In this document: positions 27,017-50,012 of the stretch, one piece after another
Layout of the letters: every line of letters starts with the position of its first letter
Numbering within the stretch: the first letter of the stretch is position 1
Assembly: GCA_900316625.1 (NCBI GenBank)
Contig: ONDO01000003.1
Location: 35,484 to 99,483, forward strand
DNA: 64,000 nucleotides
DNA from: an uncultured Lachnospiraceae bacterium
GTDB lineage: Bacteria; Bacillota; Clostridia; Lachnospirales; Lachnospiraceae
Direction of reading: 5' to 3'
Notes under the pieces: generated by a model
Seen by the model: the letters and a program-made list of their open reading frames with translations, nothing else
What the model was told of the DNA's origin: nothing
The model's database searches: none
Program-made: the position numbers and the translations under genes

Positions 27017-27081
27017 TTCTGGCTCAACAGTATACGAAAATCAGGCGATGCACGACCCGTGCGCCTTATTCGATACTCGAA

Positions 27082-27123
27082 GAAAAAAGGACGTCCGTGG
27101 ATTCCACGAACGTCCTTTTCTTC
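27082..27123. terminator. Bidirectional terminator between putP and superoxide reductase
   Basis: AGAAAAAAGGACGT and ACGTCCTTTTCT form the outer stem, with CGTGG/CCACG inside around an ATT loop. It serves the two convergent genes. Confidence 0.88.
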
Positions 27124-27154
27124 TATGATCCTATATCGGATTTTGCTACTTCGA

Positions 27155-37828: not shown

Positions 37829-39325
37829 TTATAAAGCGGAATATCCCATCAGATATTCATCCACCTCTTTGGCAGCCCCTCTGCCTTCTACAATACCCCA
37901 GACAACCAGAGACTGACCACGATGCATATCGCCCGCTGTAAATACTCCCGGGACGGAAGTCTTATAGCTTCCCTCCGCCGTCTCGATCACACTACGATTG
38001 GTTTCCTTTACACCAAAAGCCTCTGGAACATAGTCCTCTGCCCCCAGGAAGCCTGCAGCAATCAGTAACATGTCACAGGGGTAGGTCTTCTCCGAACCAG
38101 CCACTTCTGTCATCTTTCCGGCAGCAAAAGAAACCTGTACGGTAGTAATCGCCTTAATTCCACCATCTTTTTTGGTCTCGACAGACTTCACGGTCGTCTC
38201 ATAGATTCTTGGATCATCTCCAAAGAGAGCAATTGCCTCCTCCTGACCATAATCTGTCTTCAACGTTTTCGGCCACTCCGGCCAGGGATTCGATGCCGCC
38301 CTTTCTACAGGGGGACAGGGCATCATCTCTAACTGTAATACAGACTTCGCCCCCTGACGAATCGAGGTAGCCAGGCAGTCGTTACCAGTATCACCACCAC
38401 CGACGATTACAACATGTTTTCCATAAGCATATTTTGCGAGGTTCTTATAATCTTTGGCCTCCGCACGTCCACCCTTTACTTTTCCATCTAACAGGTATTT
38501 GGTGGCCTGCGTCAGATAATCAACCGCATAATAAACGCCATCCACCTTTTCGGGATCAACCGCAGGCAGACTTCTAGCCTTCTTCGCGCCGCAGCAGAGC
38601 ACAATGGCATCGTAGCGCTTCTTCAGTTCGTCGTATGTGATATCTCTGCCGACATCCACACCGGTACAGAAGACAAGGCCCTCTTCTATCATCAGATCCT
38701 TACGTCTCTGGATCACATCCTTAGGCAGTTTCATATTGGGAATACCGTACATGAGAAGTCCTCCTACCCGGTCTTCCCTCTCATAGACTGTGACATTATG
38801 TCCACGACGATTCAGAAGATCCGCGCATGCAAGTCCGGCAGGCCCCGCACCTATGACGGCAATCTTCTTGTCACTACGGTTCTCAGGAATTCTGGGCTTC
38901 AGCGTTCCCTCTTCATATGCCTTCTCGATAACATAGAGTTCATTATCACGTACCGTTACCGGAGAACCATGTTCTCCTTCCGTGCATGCCTTCTCACAGA
39001 GAGCAGGGCAGACTCTTCCCGTGAATTCCGGGAAAGAATTTGTCTTCTGCAGTCTGGAATACGCATAGCCAGGAAGGCCATGATAGATCTCGTCATTCCA
39101 CTCAGGAATCAGATTATGGAGCGGACAGCCCGTTACCATTCCATGTAACTTCATTCCACTCTGGCAGAGCGGCACACCGCAATTCATGCAGCGTGCACCC
39201 TGCTCCATTCTCTCCGTATCGGACAGAGCCTCGTGGAAATAATCATAATTCTCGATTCTCTGCTGCGGAGGGATGTCCCTATTCTCTATTCTCTTATATT
39301 CTAAAAATCCGGTTGGCTTACCCAT
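37829..39325 (-). CDS. gltD: Glutamate synthase (NADPH) small subunit
   Basis: A 498-aa flavoprotein that passes electrons from NADPH to the large subunit. The N-terminal [4Fe-4S] ligands are in CMNCGVPLC and CPLHN, with CPALCEKAC further on. The first dinucleotide site is AVIGAGPAGLACADLL and the second VIVGGGDTGNDC. AGGAGGGC precedes the ATG. It follows gltB by 16 bases as one operon and ends at the terminator in the amt leader. Confidence 0.96.
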   Translation of the reverse strand: MGKPTGFLEYKRIENRDIPPQQRIENYDYFHEALSDTERMEQGARCMNCGVPLCQSGMKLHGMVTGCPLHNLIPEWNDEIYHGLPGYAYSRLQKTNSFPEFTGRVCPALCEKACTEGEHGSPVTVRDNELYVIEKAYEEGTLKPRIPENRSDKKIAVIGAGPAGLACADLLNRRGHNVTVYEREDRVGGLLMYGIPNMKLPKDVIQRRKDLMIEEGLVFCTGVDVGRDITYDELKKRYDAIVLCCGAKKARSLPAVDPEKVDGVYYAVDYLTQATKYLLDGKVKGGRAEAKDYKNLAKYAYGKHVVIVGGGDTGNDCLATSIRQGAKSVLQLEMMPCPPVERAASNPWPEWPKTLKTDYGQEEAIALFGDDPRIYETTVKSVETKKDGGIKAITTVQVSFAAGKMTEVAGSEKTYPCDMLLIAAGFLGAEDYVPEAFGVKETNRSVIETAEGSYKTSVPGVFTAGDMHRGQSLVVWGIVEGRGAAKEVDEYLMGYSAL

Positions 39326-39341: not shown

Positions 39342-42300
39342 TCAGCCCTTACTGATCTCTTCGAATGCTTCTTCTACTGCATGTTCGTGAGAGATACCCT
39401 GTTCCTCAAATCTACTGATAGCGACGATCATACGCTGATAATCATTCGGTATGATCTTTTTGAAGAAGGGCAGATACTTGTTAAAATGATCTGCAATCTC
39501 TTTGCCAAGAAGAGAATCTGTTTCCTTTACGTAATCCTGTAGGATAGACTTCAGTTCAGCAACATCATATTTCTCTGTTACTTCCGTCATGCTGACCATA
39601 TCCTTGTTCAGCTTGCGATAGAGATCATGATCCATATCCAGAACATAAGCGATACCACCTGACATTCCGGCTGCAAGATTCTTACCGGTCTGACCCAGGA
39701 TAACCGCACGTCCTCCGGTCATGTATTCCAGACCGTGATCACCACAGCCTTCCGCTACAGCAGTTGCTCCAGAATTACGTACCAGGAAGCGCTCACCGGC
39801 AACACCGGTAATATAAGCTTTACCGCTGGTTGCACCGTAGAGTGCAACATTACCAACAATGATATTCTCTGATGCCTTGTAAGCGGCCTTTTTCGGAGGT
39901 ACTACAATGACTTTTCCTCCAGAGAGACCTTTTCCAAAGCCGTCATTTGCATCGCCGACCAGTCGAAGCGTGAGTCCCTTGGGAATGAAGGCGCCAAAGG
40001 ACTGTCCACCGGAACCCTCGCATTCTACCTGATAGGTATCTTCCTTCAGGCTCTCACCGAATTTCTCCGTCAGAACAGAACCGAGAATGGTACCCACGGT
40101 ACGATCCGTTCCCAGTACTCTTACCTTGGCCTTATGCCCTGTCTTCTTCTCAATCGCAGCCTTGAATTCCGGGAGGAGCAGACGTTCATCTACCGTCTTC
40201 TCGAGTTCAAAGTCATAGACCTTAGCCGGATCAAAATGCCTTCCTTCTGCTCCAGCAAAACGATCATCCAGAATTCCGGCAAGGTTAACAGTTGCAGCGC
40301 GATGGGTGATGGGATTCTTCTGAACCATCAGGCAGTCTGTACGTCCAATCATCTCGTCAACGGTTCTGAAGCCTAGCATTGCCATATATTCACGCAGTTC
40401 CTGTGCAACAAAGCACATGAAATTGATAACATGCTCAGGCTTACCCTTGAAGCGCTTTCTCAGTTCCGGATTCTGGGTTGCAATACCTGCAGGGCAGGTA
40501 TCCTTGGAGCATACACGCATCATCATGCATCCCATGGATACCAGCGGTGCGGTTGCAAATCCATATTCTTCTGCACCGAGGAGGGCAGCAATTGCAACGT
40601 CTCTTCCGGTCATCAGCTTACTATCTGTCTCCAGAATAACCTTCTCTCTTAAGCCATTCTCCATCAGGGTCTGGTGTGCTTCTGCAACACCCAGCTCCCA
40701 TGGAAGACCTGCATGGTGTACGGATGAGAAGGGAGCCGCACCGGTACCTCCGTCATATCCAGAGATCAGAATAACCTGAGCACCAGCCTTTGCGACACCG
40801 GATGCAATGGTACCTACACCAGCTTCCGATACCAGTTTTACAGAGATCCTGGCTCTTCTGTTTGCATTCTTAAGATCATAGATGAGCTGAGCCAGATCCT
40901 CAATGGAATAGATATCATGATGAGGAGGGGGTGAGATCAGAGACACACCCGGAGTGGAATAACGGGTACGTGCTACATGCGGATATACCTTTCTTCCAGG
41001 CAGGTTACCGCCTTCACCAGGTTTTGCACCCTGTGCCATCTTAATCTGAATCTCATCTCCGGATACCAGATAAGCTTCTGTCACACCGAATCTGCCGGAT
41101 GCGACCTGCTTCACGCGAGAATTCTTATCTGTTCCGAAACGCTTTTCCTCTTCTCCACCTTCACCGGTATTCGATCTTCCACCTAACTGATTCATGGCAA
41201 TTGCCATCGTCTCATGGGCTTCCGGGGAGATAGAGCCGAAGGACATCGCACCCGTCTGGAAGCGCTTCACGATAGATTCAATCGGTTCTACTTCTTCAAT
41301 GGGTACTGGCTTATTCTTGGGCGCGAAGTCCATAAGTCCACGGAGGGTATGGGGCTTCTCATCATCCACAAGGGCGGTATATTCTTTGAAGGTTTCGTAA
41401 CTCTTTCCTCGTACCGCCTGCTGAAGAGTAACAATGGTTTCCGGACGATACATATGATCTTCTGCCTTGGGGCCGGATCTTAACTTGTGGAATCCATTAC
41501 TATCAAGGGTTGTATCTTCTGTCAGTCCCAGCGGGTCGTAAGCATTATCATGGCGGAAGGTAACTCCTTCTGCGATCTCCTTCAGGCCGATACCACCGAT
41601 ACGGCTGACAGTACCGGTAAAGTACTTATCAATCACCTCTTTGGAGAGACCAATTGCCTCGAAGATTCTGGCAGACTGATAAGACTGCAGGGTAGAGATA
41701 CCCATCTTGGCTGCAATCTTAACAATGCCCATGAGAACAGCCTTATTGTAATCGTCGATGGCCGTATGATAATCCTTATCCAGGATGCCCTTGTCAATCA
41801 GTTCAGCAATGCATTCCTGTGCCAGATATGGATAGATTGCACGCGCGCCAAAGCCCAGAAGAGTTGCAAACTGATGCACTTCCCGAGGCTCTCCGGACTC
41901 CAGGATCAGGGAGACTGCGGTACGCTTCTTGGTACGAACCAGATGCTGTTCCACAGAAGAAACAGCCAGAAGGGACGGCATGGGAACATGGTTCTCATCG
42001 ACGCCACGATCCGACAGAATGATGATATTGTATCCACGCTCAAAAGCACGGTCAACCTGAACATTGAGCTGCTCCAGAGCATGCTCCAGAGAGGTATTCT
42101 TGTAATAGAGGATCGGAATGGTGGTCGAACGGAGTCCCGGCTGATCAAGAGAACGAATCTTCAGAATATCAACACCGGTCAGAATAGGATGGTTAACCTC
42201 AAGCACTCTGCAGTTCTGGCTGGACTCTTCGAGTAGATTACCATCTGATCCGATATAGACCGTGGTATCCGTAACAATCTTCTCACGCAGGGAATCAATC

Positions 42301-43859
42301 GGGGGATTGGTAACCTGCGCAAAGAGCTGCTTAAAGTAGCAGAAGAGATTCTGATGCTTCTCGGACAATACAGCCAGAGGAACATCGTGACCCATCGAAA
42401 CCGTTGGCTCCAGGCCATTCTCAGCCATGGGCAGGATCATCTCATGCACATCTTCATAGGAATAACCGAACACCTTATACAGACGATCTCTTAATTTCTG
42501 TTCGTAAGTCGGAATCTTCTTGTTGGGAATCTTCAGATCCTCCAGATGCAGAAGCGACATATCCAGCCACTCACCATAGGGCTTTCTCTTCGCATAGTAT
42601 TCCTTAACCTCATCATCCGGGATCAGGCGTCCCTCTCTGGTATCGATCAGAAGAATTCTTCCTGGCATCAGACGGGATTTCTTCACAATGTGCTCCGCAG
42701 AAATCTCCAGAACACCAACCTCTGATGACAGGATCAGTCGATTATCATCGGTAATGTAATAACGGCTGGGGCGAAGACCATTACGGTCAAGAGACGCTCC
42801 CACCATATCTCCATCGGAGAAGAGGATCGCTGCCGGTCCATCCCAGGGTTCCATCATCGTCGCATAATAGTGATAGAAATCTGCCTTCTCCTGGTCCATG
42901 AAAGAGTTGTTCTTCCAGGGTTCCGGAATGGTCGCCATCACAGCGAGAGGAAGATCCATTCCATTCATGTAGAGGAATTCCAGCGTATTATCAAGAATTG
43001 CAGAATCCGAACCATCCTTGTCCACAACAGGGCAGATCTTATCCATGTCATCTTCGAGAATCGGGGAAGACATGGTCTCCTCACGAGCAATCATACGGTC
43101 TACATTTCCTCGAATGGTATTGATCTCACCATTATGAGCGATCATACGATAAGGATGGGCCCTCTTCCAGCTGGGAGTTGTATTCGTAGAGAAACGGCTA
43201 TGGACAATCGCAATCGCAGATTCATAGTCCTTGTCTCTCAGATCCGTATAGAAACGACGCAACTGGGTAACCAGAAACATTCCCTTATAGACAATCGTTC
43301 TACTGGACAGGGAGCAGATATAGGTATCCTCTGCGGACTGCTCGAACTCTCTCATTAGAACGAAGAGCTTACGGTCGAAGTCGATTCCCTGTGCAGTATC
43401 CTCCGGTCTCTTTAAGAAGGCCTGAGAAATATAGGGCATGCAGTCATAGGCAGCCTTGCCCAGTATGCCTGCTTCCGTAGGTACATCTCTCCATCCGAGA
43501 ACCATGAGCCCATTCTTCTCTGCGATGACACGGAACATCCGCTGCATCATGGTTCTCTTTACCCTGTCCTGAGGGAAGAAGAACATACCAATTCCGTAGT
43601 CTCTCGCTTCTCCAAGGTCCATCCCCTGGTCTGCACAAACCTTGGAGAAAAACTTGTGGGATATCTGAAGCAGGATGCCGACACCATCACCGACTTTTCC
43701 GCTCGCATCCTTACCTGCGCGATGTTCCAGCCGCTCAACAATGGTCAGTGCATCTTCCACATTTCTGTGATCCGGCTTACCATCGATATTCACGACAGTT
43801 CCGATACCGCAGGCATCATGTTCCCGTTCGTTGTATAGTAACTCCTCACTTAATGCCAT
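39342..43859 (-). CDS. gltB: Glutamate synthase (NADPH) large subunit
   Basis: Makes two glutamates from glutamine and 2-oxoglutarate. I chose the ATG at 43859 (MALSEELL, with GGAAAGGAAAAAG upstream), giving 1505 aa. A short propeptide ends at HDA before CGIG, whose Cys is the amidotransferase nucleophile. The FMN barrel is followed by the 3Fe-4S motif CMMMRVCSKDTC, and a GXG-repeat helix domain ends the protein. It is full length. It lies downstream of pyrG, GS-like and ANTAR genes and behind its own promoter, antiterminator hairpin and terminator. Confidence 0.97.
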   Translation of the reverse strand: MALSEELLYNEREHDACGIGTVVNIDGKPDHRNVEDALTIVERLEHRAGKDASGKVGDGVGILLQISHKFFSKVCADQGMDLGEARDYGIGMFFFPQDRVKRTMMQRMFRVIAEKNGLMVLGWRDVPTEAGILGKAAYDCMPYISQAFLKRPEDTAQGIDFDRKLFVLMREFEQSAEDTYICSLSSRTIVYKGMFLVTQLRRFYTDLRDKDYESAIAIVHSRFSTNTTPSWKRAHPYRMIAHNGEINTIRGNVDRMIAREETMSSPILEDDMDKICPVVDKDGSDSAILDNTLEFLYMNGMDLPLAVMATIPEPWKNNSFMDQEKADFYHYYATMMEPWDGPAAILFSDGDMVGASLDRNGLRPSRYYITDDNRLILSSEVGVLEISAEHIVKKSRLMPGRILLIDTREGRLIPDDEVKEYYAKRKPYGEWLDMSLLHLEDLKIPNKKIPTYEQKLRDRLYKVFGYSYEDVHEMILPMAENGLEPTVSMGHDVPLAVLSEKHQNLFCYFKQLFAQVTNPPIDSLREKIVTDTTVYIGSDGNLLEESSQNCRVLEVNHPILTGVDILKIRSLDQPGLRSTTIPILYYKNTSLEHALEQLNVQVDRAFERGYNIIILSDRGVDENHVPMPSLLAVSSVEQHLVRTKKRTAVSLILESGEPREVHQFATLLGFGARAIYPYLAQECIAELIDKGILDKDYHTAIDDYNKAVLMGIVKIAAKMGISTLQSYQSARIFEAIGLSKEVIDKYFTGTVSRIGGIGLKEIAEGVTFRHDNAYDPLGLTEDTTLDSNGFHKLRSGPKAEDHMYRPETIVTLQQAVRGKSYETFKEYTALVDDEKPHTLRGLMDFAPKNKPVPIEEVEPIESIVKRFQTGAMSFGSISPEAHETMAIAMNQLGGRSNTGEGGEEEKRFGTDKNSRVKQVASGRFGVTEAYLVSGDEIQIKMAQGAKPGEGGNLPGRKVYPHVARTRYSTPGVSLISPPPHHDIYSIEDLAQLIYDLKNANRRARISVKLVSEAGVGTIASGVAKAGAQVILISGYDGGTGAAPFSSVHHAGLPWELGVAEAHQTLMENGLREKVILETDSKLMTGRDVAIAALLGAEEYGFATAPLVSMGCMMMRVCSKDTCPAGIATQNPELRKRFKGKPEHVINFMCFVAQELREYMAMLGFRTVDEMIGRTDCLMVQKNPITHRAATVNLAGILDDRFAGAEGRHFDPAKVYDFELEKTVDERLLLPEFKAAIEKKTGHKAKVRVLGTDRTVGTILGSVLTEKFGESLKEDTYQVECEGSGGQSFGAFIPKGLTLRLVGDANDGFGKGLSGGKVIVVPPKKAAYKASENIIVGNVALYGATSGKAYITGVAGERFLVRNSGATAVAEGCGDHGLEYMTGGRAVILGQTGKNLAAGMSGGIAYVLDMDHDLYRKLNKDMVSMTEVTEKYDVAELKSILQDYVKETDSLLGKEIADHFNKYLPFFKKIIPNDYQRMIVAISRFEEQGISHEHAVEEAFEEISKG

Positions 43860-43915
43860 TTCTTTTTCCTTTCCTGTTATCATGAAGCAGCCAGTCGAAT
43901 ACTGATAACACATTC

Positions 43916-43979
43916 AAAAAGGCGTCTGCAGAAGAAACAACCGAAAAGAATTCTTTCGGAGTCTTCTGCAGACGCCTTT
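43916..43979 (-). terminator. Strong intrinsic terminator in the gltB leader
   Basis: An 18-bp perfect stem: minus-strand AAAGGCGTCTGCAGAAGA (43979-43962) with its complement (43935-43918). The loop contains a secondary hairpin (CCGAAA/TTTCGG), and TTTTT follows. It ends the pyrG/GS-like/ANTAR transcript and also lies within the leader started by the promoter at 44006-44034. Confidence 0.95.
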
Positions 43980-43985
43980 GTCTGC
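43968..43985 (-). promoter_or_regulatory. Candidate ANTAR-target antiterminator hairpin, gltB leader
   Basis: GCAGAC-AAAGGC-GTCTGC on the minus strand is a perfect 6-bp stem with a six-base loop carrying A1 and G4, the pattern known for ANTAR RNA targets. Its 3' half is the start of the terminator stem, so only one can form. The usual upstream partner hairpin (P1) is not clear. Confidence 0.7.
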
Positions 43986-44005
43986 TCATTCTTTGAATTT
44001 AATTC

Positions 44006-44065: not shown

Positions 44066-44626
44066 CTACATTTCCTGGAAGGTAAGAATCATCTCAGCCG
44101 TCTCTACCATGGAGCGACCGGTGTCCATACTTGTCTTCTGAATGTAACGGAAGGCCTCTTCTTCCGTCAGATGATTTCGATCCATGATCAGAGCTTTTGC
44201 ATCATCGATCATCTTCTGTTCTTCCGGGCTTCTCTTTTTTGGCTTTGCTTTTTCCTTCTTCTTCTCTCTTCGAAAAGCATATTCCAGCTCACCTAAGATC
44301 ATGGCAACAGTATCTAGGATTGCCGCGCCCTTGGCCGGCAACTCAACTGCCATCACATCATCTTCTCTTCGAGATGCAATATTCTTCGCAGAATCCATAA
44401 GAAGAACTCTCCAGAAAGCCGGAAGATTCGGAAGAATTTCCGTATAGTCCATATCCTTCATGCGGACGGGACAGATCAGGATTCCAATATTCTGTTCTCT
44501 CATATTTCGCAGCGCCTCACCACCGCCGGAGACAATCTGAGTATCCGTAAAACCAGCATGTAAAAGGAGGAGACGGATTTTCTCCGACATGGATCCCGCC
44601 GGGAAGGCAATCAGGATCTGTGTCAT
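44066..44626 (-). CDS. nitR: ANTAR-domain antiterminator with receiver-like N-terminus (NitR-like)
   Basis: A 186-aa protein. The N-terminal part (1 to about 118) looks like a receiver fold but lacks a clear phospho-acceptor signature. A Lys-rich linker (REKKKEKAKPKKR) leads to a C-terminal ANTAR domain (about 135-184, AKALIMDRNHLTEEEAFRYI, then MVETAEMIL). ANTAR domains bind paired RNA hairpins and stop terminators from forming. The gene lies 9 bases after the GS-like gene and upstream of gltBD, the same order as the glnA-nitR-gltAB cluster of solvent-forming clostridia. The start is the ATG at 44626 (AAGGAG upstream). The symbol is given by context and domain. Confidence 0.85.
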   Translation of the reverse strand: MTQILIAFPAGSMSEKIRLLLLHAGFTDTQIVSGGGEALRNMREQNIGILICPVRMKDMDYTEILPNLPAFWRVLLMDSAKNIASRREDDVMAVELPAKGAAILDTVAMILGELEYAFRREKKKEKAKPKKRSPEEQKMIDDAKALIMDRNHLTEEEAFRYIQKTSMDTGRSMVETAEMILTFQEM

Positions 44627-44635
44627 AGGCACTCC

Positions 44636-45925
44636 TTAGATACGATGCAGATATTCACGAATCTCCCAGTCCGTCACCTCACTTGCGTAGGAATCCCATT
44701 CCCCTCGCTTCGAAGCGAGGTAGATCTTGGCATATTTCTCACCGCAAACCTCGGTAAGATATGCGTCCTTACGGAATTCATCCACTGCATCCTTCAGTGT
44801 CTTTGGAAGACTACCAACGCGGGTGTCTGCTTCCGGAAGCATAAGTTTCTTCTCAATTCCATCGAGCCCACTGGCAATCAGATACGCAATGGTAAGATAG
44901 GGATTGGTTGCCCCATCCGGAAGTTCCCAGCGGATTGCGGTATCATTCTCTCCGTCCTTTACAAGGCAGATGGGAGCTTCATAGTCCTCCTGTGACCAGA
45001 AGATCCCCTTATCAGAGCAGAAGCGAGCTCCGGTTCTCTTATAGGAATTCACAATGGGATTGGCAATTACAGACATACCAGGCATATGATGCAGAACACC
45101 TGCCAGGAATTGCTTTCCTAATTCACTCATACCATAGACATCAGTGGCGGATGTCATTTTGGCGACCGTCTCCGCTGTACCAGTCAGTGTAATTGCCATA
45201 GCAGAACCTGGAAGGTCTGTTCTGGGCTTAGGCATGAAGGTTGCATGAAATCCATTTCTTGCACCGATTGTCCTTACGGTATTTCGGAGGGTCAGGATCT
45301 GATCTGCCATCTTGACACCGGATGCTCTCTTGAAGGCTACCGCATGCTGCGCCGGTGCGTCCTCGTGATGAGAAGATTCCATCTCGAAGCCTAATTCCTC
45401 GAGAGCGAAGATAATAGCACGTCTGGCATTCTCACCGGAATCCAGGGGTGCCATATCCAGATACATGGCTCTCTCCTTCGTCTCATTGGTCGGATTCCCT
45501 TCTTCGTCTGTATCGAAGAGGAAGAATTCGCATTCCGGATTGACTTCGAAGCTAAGACCAGCCTTCTCTGCACGATCTAAAACGCTCTGCAGAATGAAGC
45601 GCGGACTCTCCTTGATCATCCTGCCATCTTCATAAGTAAGGTCACAGAGGAATCTGCCAACCTTGCCTTGCTGGGGACGCCAGGGCAGAATTGCGAAAGT
45701 ATCAATATCCGGCTTGAGATAGATCTTACGAAGGCCCATCTCCTTAGCACCACGAATGTGATATCCGTCGATATAGCTGCCACCTTCGATGGCTCTCTCA
45801 ATCTCACTTCCTGTTACCGCAATATTCCTTAATACACCGAAAAAATCTGCGAACTGTAAACGAATGAACTTAATATCTTCTTCTTCGATAATCTGTAACA
45901 CTTGTTCTTTGGTTTTCGATTCCAT
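44636..45925 (-). CDS. Glutamine synthetase I-like protein lacking key active-site residues
   Basis: A 429-aa protein with the GSI fold but altered catalytic sites. Kept: ECEFFLFD (metal Glu pair), SHHE, MPKP, NSYKR and NPYL. Lost: the metal Glu in QHEID (here QHAVA), the His in GSGMH (here GSAMA), the GYEAP flap and the NRSPLIR arginines that bind substrate and ATP. It is also shorter than the usual 444 aa. It therefore probably does not make glutamine and may act as a sensor or a different ligase. True synthesis can come from GSIII at 47907. It sits 17 bases after pyrG (GAGGAG site) and directly before the ANTAR gene. Confidence 0.8.
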   Translation of the reverse strand: MESKTKEQVLQIIEEEDIKFIRLQFADFFGVLRNIAVTGSEIERAIEGGSYIDGYHIRGAKEMGLRKIYLKPDIDTFAILPWRPQQGKVGRFLCDLTYEDGRMIKESPRFILQSVLDRAEKAGLSFEVNPECEFFLFDTDEEGNPTNETKERAMYLDMAPLDSGENARRAIIFALEELGFEMESSHHEDAPAQHAVAFKRASGVKMADQILTLRNTVRTIGARNGFHATFMPKPRTDLPGSAMAITLTGTAETVAKMTSATDVYGMSELGKQFLAGVLHHMPGMSVIANPIVNSYKRTGARFCSDKGIFWSQEDYEAPICLVKDGENDTAIRWELPDGATNPYLTIAYLIASGLDGIEKKLMLPEADTRVGSLPKTLKDAVDEFRKDAYLTEVCGEKYAKIYLASKRGEWDSYASEVTDWEIREYLHRI

Positions 45926-45942: not shown

Positions 45943-47547
45943 TTACTTGTGATATTCCACTGCTGCTTTTACCAGTCCCGCAAATAAAGGATGTGCTTTG
46001 TTGGGTCTTGATTTGAATTCCGGATGGGCCTGGGTTCCGATATAGAAGGGATGCCCTTCCACTTCCACCATCTCGACAATTCTATTATCCGGAGAGATTC
46101 CAGATAATGTCAATCCTGCATCTGCCATTGCCTGGCGGAAATCATTATTGAATTCAAATCTGTGTCTGTGACGCTCTGAGATTTCAGCCTTCCCGTAGAG
46201 ACGATATGCGAGACTTCCTTCCTTAACCTTACAAGGATATGCTCCAAGTCTCATTGTACCACCAAGATCCTCAACTTCCCTCTGTTCCGGCATCAGATCA
46301 ATAACAGGATGCAGAGTATCAGGTGCGAATTCGGTCGAATTTGCATCATGGAATCCTAAGACATCCCTTGCAAAGCTAACCACTGCCATCTGCATTCCGA
46401 GACAGATACCAAGATAAGGAATCTTCTTCTCACGGGCATAGCCTGCTGCCATGATCATTCCCTCAGTACCTCTGTCACCGAAACCACCAGGAACCAGAAT
46501 TCCGTCCACTCCTGCAAGCAGCTTCTCTGCTCCTTCCTTCTCAATCTCCTCTGAATCCACCCATCGGATATTCACTTCGGCATGATTCTTAATACCGCCA
46601 TGCTTTAGTGCCTCCACAACGGACAGATATGCATCATGCAGAGCAATATATTTTCCTACAATTGCGATCTCTGCCTTATCTGTCGGATGGCGAAGATCCT
46701 CTACCATATCTTCCCACTCTTTTAAACCCGTTGCCTCCGGCACCGGCATGTGCAGACACTCCAATACAACATCTGCGAGATGCTCCTTCTCCATCATAAG
46801 AGGAAGAGAGTAGAGGGAATCTGCATCCAGGTTCTGTAGTACATATTTAGCAGGTACATTACAGAAGAGGGCGATCTTATCTTTCAGAGACTGGGACAAT
46901 TCCATCTCTGTTCTACATACCAGGATATCCGGCTGAATTCCAATTTCTAAGCACTTCTTAACAGAGGTTTGCGTCGGTTTTGTTTTCAGCTCGCCTGATA
47001 CGCGAAGATAAGGGATGAGCGTTACGTGAATCATAATGGCATTCTCACGTCCGACATCATGCTGGAACTGACGAATCGCTTCTAAGAAAGGCTGGCTCTC
47101 GATATCACCAACTGTACCGCCCACCTCAATGATTGCAACTCTGTCTTCAGACTGATCTTCACTACGATAGAATCTGGACTTTATTTCATTCGTAATATGA
47201 GGAATGACCTGAACGGTTCCTCCGCCATAATCTCCATGACGTTCCTTATTCAGAACGGACCAGTAGATCTTACCTGAAGTCACATTCGCATTATGGTCTA
47301 AGGACTCGTCGATAAATCTCTCATAATGGCCCAAGTCAAGATCTGTCTCCGTACCATCATCTGTAACAAAGACTTCTCCATGCTGAATCGGGTTCATGGT
47401 TCCAGGATCCACATTGATATAAGGATCAAACTTCTGCATGGTGACCTTGATACCGCGTGCCTTCAGAAGTCTTCCAAGGGAAGCTGCTGTAATACCTTTT
47501 CCAAGACCAGATACAACACCACCTGTTACAAATACATACTTAACCAT
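45943..47547 (-). CDS. pyrG: CTP synthase
   Basis: Makes CTP from UTP with glutamine as nitrogen donor. The start is the ATG at 47547 ([18 protein letters not shown], with GGAGGAAGCAG upstream), giving 534 aa. The frame runs open further upstream into the leader but without a start signal. The synthetase domain has [11 protein letters not shown] and the glutaminase domain has GICLGMQ with the nucleophile Cys and a C-terminal HPEF. It is the first gene of a unit with the GS-like and ANTAR genes. Confidence 0.97.
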
Positions 47548-47613
47548 CTGCTTCCTCCATCGATTTACACTCTTGCCGTCGCACACTTTTTTGCATTTCA
47601 TCAGATACTCACG

Positions 47614-47668
47614 AAAAAAGGTGTCGAAAAGTAAGAGGTCTTTTGCCTCTCTCTCTGACACCTTTGTC
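47614..47668 (-). terminator. Attenuator in the pyrG leader
   Basis: On the minus strand AAAGGTGTC (47665-47657) pairs with GACACCTTT (47625-47617), with AGAGG/CCTCT inside and six T residues at the end. A short GAC-AAAGGT-GTC hairpin (47668-47657) overlaps its 5' arm and repeats the loop pattern of the gltB, glnN and amt leaders, but with a stem of only 3 bp. pyrG leaders of Gram-positives are often attenuated in response to CTP, so that is an alternative. Confidence 0.75.
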
Positions 47669-47694
47669 GCCCTAATATAAAAAACACGTTCAAT

Positions 47695-47796: not shown

Positions 47797-47819
47797 TCAT
47801 AACATCAAATTATGAACAG

Positions 47820-47837
47820 CAAAGCAAAGGCGCTTTG
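47820..47837 (+). promoter_or_regulatory. Candidate ANTAR-target antiterminator hairpin, glnN leader
   Basis: CAAAGC-AAAGGC-GCTTTG is a perfect 6-bp stem with the same six-base loop (A1, G4) as in the gltB leader. Its 3' half overlaps the 5' arm of the terminator. An upstream stem TTCATAA-7-TTATGAA (47795-47815) exists, but the predicted start site would cut it. Confidence 0.7.
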
Positions 47838-47868
47838 GGCAGACTATTCTGCTCAGGGCGCCTTTTTT
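47826..47868 (+). terminator. Intrinsic terminator in the glnN leader
   Basis: AAAGGCGC (47826-47833) pairs with GCGCCTTT (47858-47865), with GCAGA/TCTGC inside, and six T residues run to 47868. It precedes the glnN ATG by 38 bases, so it can only be an attenuator for glnN. Confidence 0.9.
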
Positions 47869-47906
47869 GCTACATAAAAACTCGAAGCATCGAAAGGAGA
47901 TACAAT

Positions 47907-50012
47907 ATGTCTAAGGCATCAGTACCCGAACTCTATGGAAGTATGGTTTTTAATGACCGTATCATGAAAGAACGCCTGCCCAAGGCAACCTACAAGGCTC
48001 TCCGTAAGACTATTGCGGATGGAACTTCTCTGGAACTTGAAACCGCAAATACCATTGCTGCTGTAATGAAGGAATGGGCTATTGAAAAGGGTGCTACACA
48101 TTTCACCCATTGGTTCCAGCCCATGACTGGTTTCACCGCTGAGAAGCATGACAGCTTTATCACTCCTCAGGAGGATGGTTCCGTTCTCATGAGTTTCTCT
48201 GGTAAGGAACTGATCAAGGGTGAACCGGATGCATCTTCCTTCCCTTCCGGTGGTATCCGCGCCACCTTCGAAGCACGTGGCTATACTGCATGGGATCCTT
48301 CCTCTCCTGCCTTTGTTAAGGATGGCACACTTTATATCCCCACTGCATTTTGCTCCTATGGCGGTGAATCCTTGGATAAGAAGACTCCCCTGCTTCGTTC
48401 TATGGACGCTCTCAATCATGAGGCTGTAAGAATGCTCCGCCTGCTTGGCAATACCACAGTAAAGAGAGTCGATACCACCGTTGGTTCCGAACAGGAATAC
48501 TTCCTGATTGATAAGGATCTCTACATGCAGAGAAAGGATCTTCTCTTCTGTGGAAGAACCCTTCTCGGTGCACCTGCTCCTAAGGGACAGGAGATGGAAG
48601 ATCATTACTTCGGCGTTTTAAAACCCAAGGTATCTGCCTTCATGCATGATCTCGATGAAGAGCTCTGGAAGCTTGGTGTTCCTGCTAAGACCAAACATAA
48701 TGAGGTTGCTCCTGCACAGCATGAGCTTGCCCCCATCTTCGAAACCGCAAATATCGCCGTAGATCACAACCAGCTGACCATGGAGATGATGAAGAAGGTT
48801 GCAGACCGTCACAATATGGCCTGCCTCCTGCACGAGAAGCCTTTCGAAGGAATCAATGGTTCCGGAAAGCATGTCAACTGGTCCATCGTTACTGATGAGG
48901 GTGAGAACCTGCTTGAACCTGGTAAGACTCCCGCTGAGAACACCCAGTTCCTTGTCTTCCTGATTGCTGTCATTGCAGCTGTTGATAAGTATGCAAAGCT
49001 TCTTCGTGTCAGCGTTGCATCAGCAGGTAACGACCACAGACTTGGTGCCAACGAAGCACCTCCCGCTGTTATCTCTATCTTCCTTGGTGACGAGCTTGAG
49101 TCCATTCTCTCTGCCATTGACAAGGGCATTAGTCCTGAAGATGCAGAACATACCTTAATGAATATCGGTGCCAAGATTCTCCCGACCTTCACCAAGGATA
49201 CTACCGATCGTAACAGAACTTCTCCTTTTGCCTTCACTGGTAACAAGTTCGAGTTCCGTATGCCTGGTTCTTCTGTCTCCGTAGCAGATCCGAATGTCAT
49301 CCTGAATACTGCAGTCGCAGACTCTCTTAGACATATGAGAAAAGAACTCGAGGGAACCTCTGAAGATAAGCTTCAGGATAGTCTGATGAAGCTTCTGCAG
49401 AAAACCCTGAAAGAGCATAAGCGAGTTCTCTTTAATGGTAACGGTTATACCGACGAATGGCTTACAGAAGCTGAGAAGAGAGGCCTTCCTAACTTAAAGT
49501 CTCTTCCGGATGCAATGCCAGCACTGATTGAAGACGACAGCATTGCCCTCTTCACTGCCTATCACATCTTTAGCGAGACCGAACTCCGTGCCCGCTATGA
49601 GATTCTTCTGGAGAACTATTCCAAGCTGATCCATATCGAGAGCCTGACCCTGCAGGATATGGTCAAGAAGGACTTCACGACCGGACTTCTCTCCTATATG
49701 TCCGATGTCACTGCAGAAGCATTACAGAAGCAGGAGTTCTCTGATACGATCTCTGTTTCCTATGAGAAGGAGATTCTCGAAACCCTGTCCTCTTCTTCCG
49801 AGGCTATCAACGCAAGCCTGAAGAAGCTTGCAGAGGATACAGCAAGCGCTGAATCCGAAGCTGACGAACAGAAGAGAGCTGTAAAGTATCACGAGACGAT
49901 TCTTGCTGACATGGAAGACGTACGTAAGGCGGTTGATACTGCCGAGGCCATCATTCCTCAGGAATACCTCACCTACCCGACCTACGACCAGTTGCTCTTC
50001 TCTCTTAGATAA
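47907..50012 (+). CDS. glnN: Glutamine synthetase type III
   Basis: A 701-aa enzyme of the large GSIII class that makes glutamine from glutamate, ammonia and ATP. Family motifs are present: VGSEQEYFLID, KHNEVAPAQHELAPIFE, HEKPFEGINGSGKHVNWS, GNDHRLGANEAPPA, DRNRTSPFAFTGNKFEFR. The residues lost in the GS-like protein at 44636 are all intact here. The start is the ATG at 47907 behind GAAAGGAGA. Expression is probably controlled by the leader attenuator. asnB follows after 26 bases. Confidence 0.96.
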   Translation: MSKASVPELYGSMVFNDRIMKERLPKATYKALRKTIADGTSLELETANTIAAVMKEWAIEKGATHFTHWFQPMTGFTAEKHDSFITPQEDGSVLMSFSGKELIKGEPDASSFPSGGIRATFEARGYTAWDPSSPAFVKDGTLYIPTAFCSYGGESLDKKTPLLRSMDALNHEAVRMLRLLGNTTVKRVDTTVGSEQEYFLIDKDLYMQRKDLLFCGRTLLGAPAPKGQEMEDHYFGVLKPKVSAFMHDLDEELWKLGVPAKTKHNEVAPAQHELAPIFETANIAVDHNQLTMEMMKKVADRHNMACLLHEKPFEGINGSGKHVNWSIVTDEGENLLEPGKTPAENTQFLVFLIAVIAAVDKYAKLLRVSVASAGNDHRLGANEAPPAVISIFLGDELESILSAIDKGISPEDAEHTLMNIGAKILPTFTKDTTDRNRTSPFAFTGNKFEFRMPGSSVSVADPNVILNTAVADSLRHMRKELEGTSEDKLQDSLMKLLQKTLKEHKRVLFNGNGYTDEWLTEAEKRGLPNLKSLPDAMPALIEDDSIALFTAYHIFSETELRARYEILLENYSKLIHIESLTLQDMVKKDFTTGLLSYMSDVTAEALQKQEFSDTISVSYEKEILETLSSSSEAINASLKKLAEDTASAESEADEQKRAVKYHETILADMEDVRKAVDTAEAIIPQEYLTYPTYDQLLFSLR

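Follow-up and report, generated by a model that had tools for sequence, protein, structure and literature searches.

A glutamine synthetase-like pseudoenzyme encoded beside an ANTAR antiterminator gene in Lachnospiraceae, a possible nitrogen sensor

Introduction

What does a glutamine synthetase (GS) whose active site has been dismantled do for a bacterium that also encodes an intact one? The question is raised by a gut and rumen bacterial family, the Lachnospiraceae, in which type I GS (GSI) proteins have repeatedly lost their catalytic residues and yet stay paired with the gene of an ANTAR antiterminator. A member of this regulator family, NitR, induces the GS/GOGAT genes of Clostridium saccharobutylicum on nitrogen limitation, and clostridial GS/GOGAT regulation through NitR is described as not fully understood (PMC6316151). 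A preliminary description of one such locus, within a 64,000-nt stretch of DNA from an uncultured Lachnospiraceae bacterium (hereafter the window), had proposed that the GS-like protein senses glutamine or nitrogen and controls the adjacent antiterminator. Herein we examine that proposal computationally.

Results

The locus and the fold of the GSI-like protein

The minus strand of the window carries, in this order, pyrG, the GSI-like gene, the ANTAR gene, gltB and gltD, with a type III GS (GSIII) gene and an asparagine synthetase gene running divergently:

37829..39325, minus strand: gltD, glutamate synthase small subunit, named by position and its flavin/FeS domains
39342..43913, minus strand: gltB, glutamate synthase large subunit by its domains, a predicted ANTAR target from its leader hairpin
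43910..43988, minus strand: gltB leader, GCAGAC[AAAGGC]GTCTGC hexaloop hairpin (loop 43979-43974) that excludes an intrinsic terminator
44066..44632, minus strand: ANTAR RNA-binding protein with a pseudo-receiver, NitR/AmiR/EutV-like by domains, model and fold search
44636..45925, minus strand: GSI-alpha-fold pseudoenzyme of 429 aa, by Pfam, alignment and AlphaFold2 model
45943..47661, minus strand: pyrG (CTP synthase), 17 nt upstream of the GSI-like gene
47817..47873, plus strand: GSIII leader, CAAAGC[AAAGGC]GCTTTG hexaloop hairpin (loop 47826-47831) that excludes an intrinsic terminator
47835..50012, plus strand: GSIII, a predicted ANTAR target and predicted working GS, catalytic motifs intact

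The GSI-like open reading frame is full length and begins with ATG. Judged by inspection of the short intergenic gaps, a pyrG-GSI-ANTAR operon with pyrG as its first gene is probable; the real start of the ANTAR gene is likely ATG 44626, preceded by an AAGGAG overlapping the stop codon of GSI, and that of GSIII is likely ATG 47907. The pyrG leader (window ~47600-47680, minus strand) holds a terminator and a GGG near the likely start, an arrangement reminiscent of the CTP-dependent attenuation of pyrG in Bacillus. The draft genome (1.93 Mb, 83.65% complete) yielded one GSI, two GSIII and one ANTAR gene. The intact GSIII that the preliminary description had placed nearby is indeed there, and its catalytic-motif glutamates are kept in all ten distinct GSIII frames taken from our loci, both own-genome copies included, although these frames had been selected by one of the same motifs.

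The GSI fold is retained, as had been claimed. Both Pfam domains are present (PF03951, Gln-synt_N; PF00120, Gln-synt_C), so that the protein has the beta-grasp N-domain and catalytic C-domain of the GS fold, and its closest solved relatives are the GSI-alpha enzymes of Paenibacillus and Bacillus. The AlphaFold2 model (pLDDT 86.1, pTM 0.90), searched with Foldseek against the PDB fold library as was the ANTAR model, superposes on 8s59, 7tdp and 4lnn with a TM of ~0.9. The protein nevertheless scores below the NCBI GlnA equivalog TIGR00653 (276.8 bits against a cut-off of 429.15).

Loss of the phosphoryl-transfer residues

The six metal ligands of Salmonella GSI are E129, E131, E212, E220, H269 and E357 (PMC6529630), and correspond by alignment to E132, E134, E189, E196, H245 and E333 in Bacillus subtilis numbering, which is used below. 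Three of the six are kept in the query, E196, H245 and E333 being replaced by A, A and R. Compared with B. subtilis GS, QHE has become QHA (loss of E196), GSGMH has become GSAMA (H245), the GYEAP flap RFCSD (E304), NRSPLIR DYEAPIC (R316 and R321) and TRVEVR TAIRWE (R331 lost, E333 to R, R335 to E). The flap glutamate and the substrate and phosphate arginines E304, R316, R321, R331 and R335 are thus replaced, R298 excepted, and R62, a feedback-inhibition residue of the B. subtilis enzyme, is likewise lost; D53, E132, E134, E189, G241 and R298 remain. The losses of the active-site histidine, the flap and the substrate arginines noted in the preliminary description all held; its loss of a metal glutamate stood for E196 (Salmonella E220) and needs correcting in that the HHE glutamate, E189 (E212), is retained.

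In a Paenibacillus GS structure the arginine that corresponds to R298 holds the substrate carboxylate, and a nitrogen is held by the E134 counterpart together with the carbonyl of the G241 counterpart (PMC9249791; the mapping onto B. subtilis residues is our own, with numbering shifted by two). By this pattern of lost and retained residues, the phosphoryl-transfer half of the pocket has gone while an amino-acid clamp of E134, G241 and R298 has been kept. From the active-site losses in their motif context, pseudoenzyme status is well supported.

An alignment with relatives showed that the lost residues are not supplied from displaced positions. Where NRSPL would stand, the query reads YEAP, which had the look of a displaced flap; this idea was set aside: relatives read YRAL, YRAS, YKAP, YNAP or YYAP at the same position, so that its occurrence in the query is put down to chance and the losses are unshifted. 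The change of E333 to R is special to the query; the five congeners of its type have lost E196 and H245 and retain E333.

GSI and ANTAR genes are paired across the family

In a sample of 200 Lachnospiraceae genomes, one per genus, the GSI query found a match in 178, an ANTAR domain was present in 175 and GSIII in 198; a few genomes absent from the match lists were identified by elimination. Both GSI and ANTAR occurred in 172 genera, GSI alone in 6, ANTAR alone in 3 and neither in 19 (Fisher p 1.4e-18, with genomes treated as independent and kinship ignored). Four of the six GSI-only genomes hold a distant GS only (G064, G096, G125, G175), and in the other two (G137, G199) the genes lie at contig ends. 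From 177 of the 178 genomes (G096 was left out) we took 180 GSI frames. A same-strand ANTAR frame follows in 167 of them by a fixed gap rule and, on inspection, in five more where the open frames overlap beyond that rule. Of the remaining eight, three are distant GS and three sit at the end of a contig (G057, G126, G137). Two are true exceptions: the second GSI copy in G112, and G053, where GSI and ANTAR are on separate contigs and not near an edge. GSI is therefore tied to the ANTAR gene more strongly than first described, in that pairing is near-universal in the family sample and survives repeated loss of the active site.

Gene copies beyond one per genome were seen in a few cases: G059 (L094, L260) and G194 (L181, L255) each have two GSI copies with an ANTAR gene adjoining every copy, and the second copy of G112 (L259) is the one without. 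G126 had at first appeared to hold a bare ANTAR domain remote from its GSI, a reading we dropped on finding both genes at contig ends. In the genus of the query, eight of nine genomes keep both genes and the ninth (G201) has neither; six of the nine carry the query-type dead GSI and two another dead type (E132R, E333V).

Two candidate correlates were tried and rejected. A WRP loop (R83, P84) that differs from B. subtilis is conserved in intact and dead copies, and is no marker of an ANTAR-specific surface, since the two GSI copies without an adjoining ANTAR gene (L258, L259) also carry it. Compensation for a dead GSI by GSIII fails to separate dead from intact copies because GSIII is near-universal (198 of the 200 genera); in the sole near-complete genome without it (G083, 98% complete) GSI is intact, a single case.

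Repeated loss of metal ligands under purifying selection

Among the 180 GSIs, 147 retain the full set of six metal ligands; 17 retain five, 9 four, 3 three and 4 two. All 13 checked sites are canonical in 71. Since 147 keep the full set, the GSI-ANTAR pair of most genera may hold an active GS, an aspect that the preliminary description, confined to one locus, did not contain. The amino-acid clamp is kept throughout (R298 and G241 in 180 of 180, E134 in 179). In the 16 copies with four ligands or fewer, E132 is retained in 7, H245 in 6, E333 in 5, E196 in 8, E189 in 12 and E134 in 15, and the ligands lost differ between dead lineages.

The number of events was counted on a tree of 197 rows built with the catalytic columns excluded (quick LG+G4, long branches), from which one gapped GSI row (L262) and two GSIII fragments had been dropped. 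Rows with four or fewer of six ligands (16 of 179 from the sample, 29 of the 197 in the tree) require at least 6 changes, of which 5 are forced by the starred branches even when set against the 16 one-ligand-lost rows alone; with the threshold at five or fewer, 16 changes are required. Such counts are blind to gain versus loss, and loss is assumed.

Selection on the dead copies is purifying. By the Nei-Gojobori method, dN/dS in pairs of dead copies was 0.075 (L006/L008), 0.061 (L010/L011) and 0.020 (L030/L031), and 0.063 (L055/L062) and 0.079 (L087/L010) in two pairs with dS above 2, so that usable pairs span 0.02-0.08; four further dead pairs were saturated. Two close dead pairs gave higher values, 0.13 (L285/L286) and 0.37 (L008/L009, with very few differences). 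An intact pair (L012/L013) gave 0.056, as did L025/L027, in which one ligand (E189) is lost; L012, which has its metal ligands intact and carries the GSI-ANTAR pair, comes from Lachnoclostridium phytofermentans. Columns conserved to at least 90% in 136 intact copies and to at most 50% in 15 broken ones were only E132, H187, E196, H245, L319 and E333; the metal ligands enter this list by the definition of "broken", and the finding lies in the stability of nearly all other columns.

These data bear on three other accounts of the protein. That it is a non-functional remnant carried along in the operon is scarcely credible: the loss of two or more metal ligands in 16 of the 180 copies is what decay would give, but dN/dS in dead pairs with enough changes resembles that of the intact pair, conserved columns outside the metal site stay conserved, and among the close matches listed only three have inner stops (G146, G120, G079). 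An enzyme with another reaction, for example a gamma-glutamyl ligase of the GlnA4/PauA7 kind, is suggested by GlnA4 itself, a GS paralogue with an altered flap loop that is a real ligase. Enzymes of this type, however, keep all six metal ligands (both points from PMC6529630), whereas the query is without E196, H245 and E333, different dead lineages have lost different ligands, and the aligned motifs showed no conserved replacement site; we regard such an enzyme as very improbable. A purely structural partner, which would bind no ligand and would constitutively scaffold or stabilise the ANTAR protein, would accord with the replacement of the feedback-inhibition residues E304 and R62 and of several ATP-site arginines. 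It would leave the clamp, kept at each position in 179-180 of 180 copies, dead ones included, hard to explain, and we think it unlikely.

The ANTAR protein has a pseudo-receiver that is missing where GSI is missing

The ANTAR protein carries the ANTAR domain (PF03861, E 3e-18), its model has a pLDDT of 91.7, and Foldseek ranked EutV (6ww6) best together with Rv1626, followed by FixJ and then AmiR. Its C-terminus has no SRF tail. In an alignment of 170 rows, the phospho-acceptor column, placed by eye on the CheY-type motif, is filled in 167 and contains Asp in none of them, with Gly, Asn, Ser and other residues instead; the domain is therefore a pseudo-receiver. Pseudo-receivers of the AmiR type are thought to be run by protein contact (PMC3369931).

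In all three sample genomes that have an ANTAR domain and no GSI match (G019, G063, G121) the receiver is absent. In G019 the CTP synthase gene is fused in frame to a bare ANTAR domain (L274:5628-7382, minus strand); G063 shows the same fusion as far as its contig goes, with only the pyrG end present (L275, 3' end), and so does G208, a genome of the G019 genus that was not part of the GSI search (L290:1-1659, plus strand). These fusions occupy the place of pyrG-GSI-ANTAR in other genomes, and a match to the GSIII leader persists in the G019 locus (L274, 7690-7738, E 0.0026). G121 has a bare ANTAR domain of ~70 aa, while all seven further genomes in that genus pair GSI with an ANTAR gene of full length. 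By these gene structures, the receiver appears to have been lost independently at least twice, a small number of events. The missing receiver in the few genomes with ANTAR and without GSI adds a second line to the proposed link between the two proteins.

It also weighs against the pseudo-GS acting on enzyme activity, either as part of GSIII (or some other GS) or as its inhibitor, with the ANTAR gene merely co-regulated. The position of GSIII, divergent beside pyrG, and its presence in 198 of the 200 genera speak for such a role; the absence of the ANTAR receiver where GSI is absent is left unexplained by it, and GSI tracks ANTAR, 19 of the 22 genomes without a GSI match being also without ANTAR and GSIII being found almost everywhere. 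GSI and GSIII are, moreover, unlike in size and in oligomer type. We judge this role distinctly improbable.

Hexaloop hairpins that compete with terminators precede the GSIII and gltB genes

The two leaders in the window, which lay outside the earlier account, are antiterminator-like. A scan of the 64 kb with a rule written after both had been seen (hexaloop with A1/G4, stem of at least 5, overlapping terminator) gave 4 matches, two of which are the gltB and GSIII leaders with the loop AAAGGC, and ten Markov controls gave 0 or 1 match each. In an alignment of 32 leaders the covariation scores of the hexaloop and competing terminator helices exceeded all 500 shuffles; pairs with two-sided change (5/6 and 5/10) did not (154 and 127 of 500). 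Because the rows were chosen with both helices in mind, the covariation is supportive only. Neither window leader matched an Rfam family at the gathering score, permissive matches being far below the cut-offs.

A leader model was trained on these 32 leaders, which are among the sites that it finds and include both window leaders. In the own genome, at E up to 5, it returned these two training rows and a third match (window 27079-27126, E 0.11), which was discarded as the plain terminator of a desulfoferrodoxin gene. Across the loci, 81 of the 108 listed matches were placed (the window was excluded, as were L281, which coincides in place with L007, any match with E above 0.054, palindromic antisense matches, and L120 at E 0.049), and they precede GSI (58), GSIII (9), gltB (4), asnB (3), pyrG (3) and other genes (4); 23 of the 58 before GSI had served for training, and the 58 include two places twice. 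A match lies directly ahead of GSI in 56 of 177 genera, for example L168:7364-7414 (minus strand), L237:7477-7529 (minus strand) and L112:1398-1446 (plus strand). In the query clade (L005-L011, L086-L088) there was no leader match ahead of GSI, and matches lay instead ahead of GSIII, gltB and asnB. G201, which is without GSI and ANTAR, gave one terminator-like match at E up to 0.05, ahead of no nitrogen gene.

Further matches in congeners (L310, L307, L316, L324, L325, L322, L327, L329; E 4e-5 to 0.04) precede genes for an ABC ATPase, an APH-like kinase, an amino-acid permease, ornithine-cyclodeaminase-like proteins and an FAD oxidoreductase, possibly a wider nitrogen regulon.

The known EutV target consists of dual hairpins with an A1/G4 hexaloop overlapping the terminator (PMC3369931). 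Our leaders share the A1/G4 hexaloop hairpin that excludes a terminator. A -10 box was assignable in 47 of 53 leaders, by a loose promoter rule with no control run, and in 44 of the 47 the hairpin begins 4-14 nt downstream of it. By that rule, a two-hairpin site like the EutV target would probably not fit in these 44 leaders, which would leave no room for the first hairpin; by eye, the 20-30 nt upstream of the two window leaders hold no A1/G4 hexaloop hairpin. From the leader sequences, a candidate new RNA element would be one lone hexaloop hairpin, close to the 5' end of the transcript and in competition with a terminator.

Discussion

We consider it reasonably probable, with real room for doubt, that the GSI pseudoenzyme senses nitrogen on behalf of the ANTAR antiterminator whose gene immediately follows. 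The continued presence of dead GSI copies beside the ANTAR gene suggests that GSI has given up its role as an enzyme for that of a nitrogen sensor. The pseudo-GS, which probably continues to form a ring oligomer, would bind glutamine or glutamate and contact the pseudo-receiver; both the binding and the contact, and hence the sensor role, are inferred. With nitrogen plentiful, it would keep the ANTAR protein inactive, and GSIII and GOGAT transcripts would end early. When glutamine falls, the freed ANTAR protein would stabilise the hexaloop hairpin and RNA polymerase would read through, with glutamine then made by GSIII. We are least sure of the sign of the switch; its direction is taken from NitR, which induces GS/GOGAT genes on nitrogen limitation.

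Several known systems share parts of this arrangement. In C. saccharobutylicum nitR is linked to glnA. The locus described here resembles glnA-nitR in that an ANTAR antiterminator is linked to a GS gene and has sites ahead of GS/GOGAT genes; it differs in that the adjoining GS is predicted to have no catalytic activity, GS activity is expected from GSIII instead, and the leaders precede GSIII and gltB. In AmiC-AmiR (PMC3369931) and NasS-NasT (PMC3795266) a separate ligand-binding protein controls and restrains the ANTAR regulator, and loss of NasS leads to constitutive expression. Common to these pairs and ours is a receiver-like domain that cannot be phosphorylated, the separate sensor being predicted here from the genes; NasS, however, resembles the nitrate-binding NrtA, whereas the sensor proposed here has a glutamine synthetase fold.

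That a GS can report on glutamine has a precedent in Bacillus and relatives, where it senses glutamine and controls GlnR, encoded in the same operon (PMC9249791). Our proposal shares with GS-GlnR/TnrA the use of a GS as a glutamine reporter that controls a regulator. There, in contrast, the GS is active, the regulator binds DNA, docking uses an SRF tail, and E304 and R62 hold the state, neither residue being kept here; since E304, R62 and R316, through which B. subtilis GS senses glutamine, are missing along with the SRF tail, the sensing and docking of Bacillus cannot be copied in this pair. Lengsin, a vertebrate pseudo-GS, has the GS fold without GS activity, but its role and lineage are unrelated. 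A literature search that for the most part did not extend to subscription papers turned up no case of a dead GS serving an ANTAR antiterminator as its sensor.

Extended to the whole family, the proposal would be that Lachnospiraceae GSI in general is the glutamine-sensing subunit of ANTAR, that GSIII is biosynthetic, and that the target recognised by the ANTAR protein is of a new kind, one lone hexaloop hairpin at the extreme 5' end of the transcript. With the two GS types divided in this way, GSI catalysis would be dispensable, and it would have been lost in at least 5-6 lineages. We see this extension as evenly balanced between being right and wrong.

For annotation, the findings are a warning that "glutamine synthetase" in some gut bacteria denotes non-enzymes. 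For the biology of the family, a partner GS that is dead in certain genera but looks intact in other genera may amount to an experiment of nature that parts sensing from catalysis.
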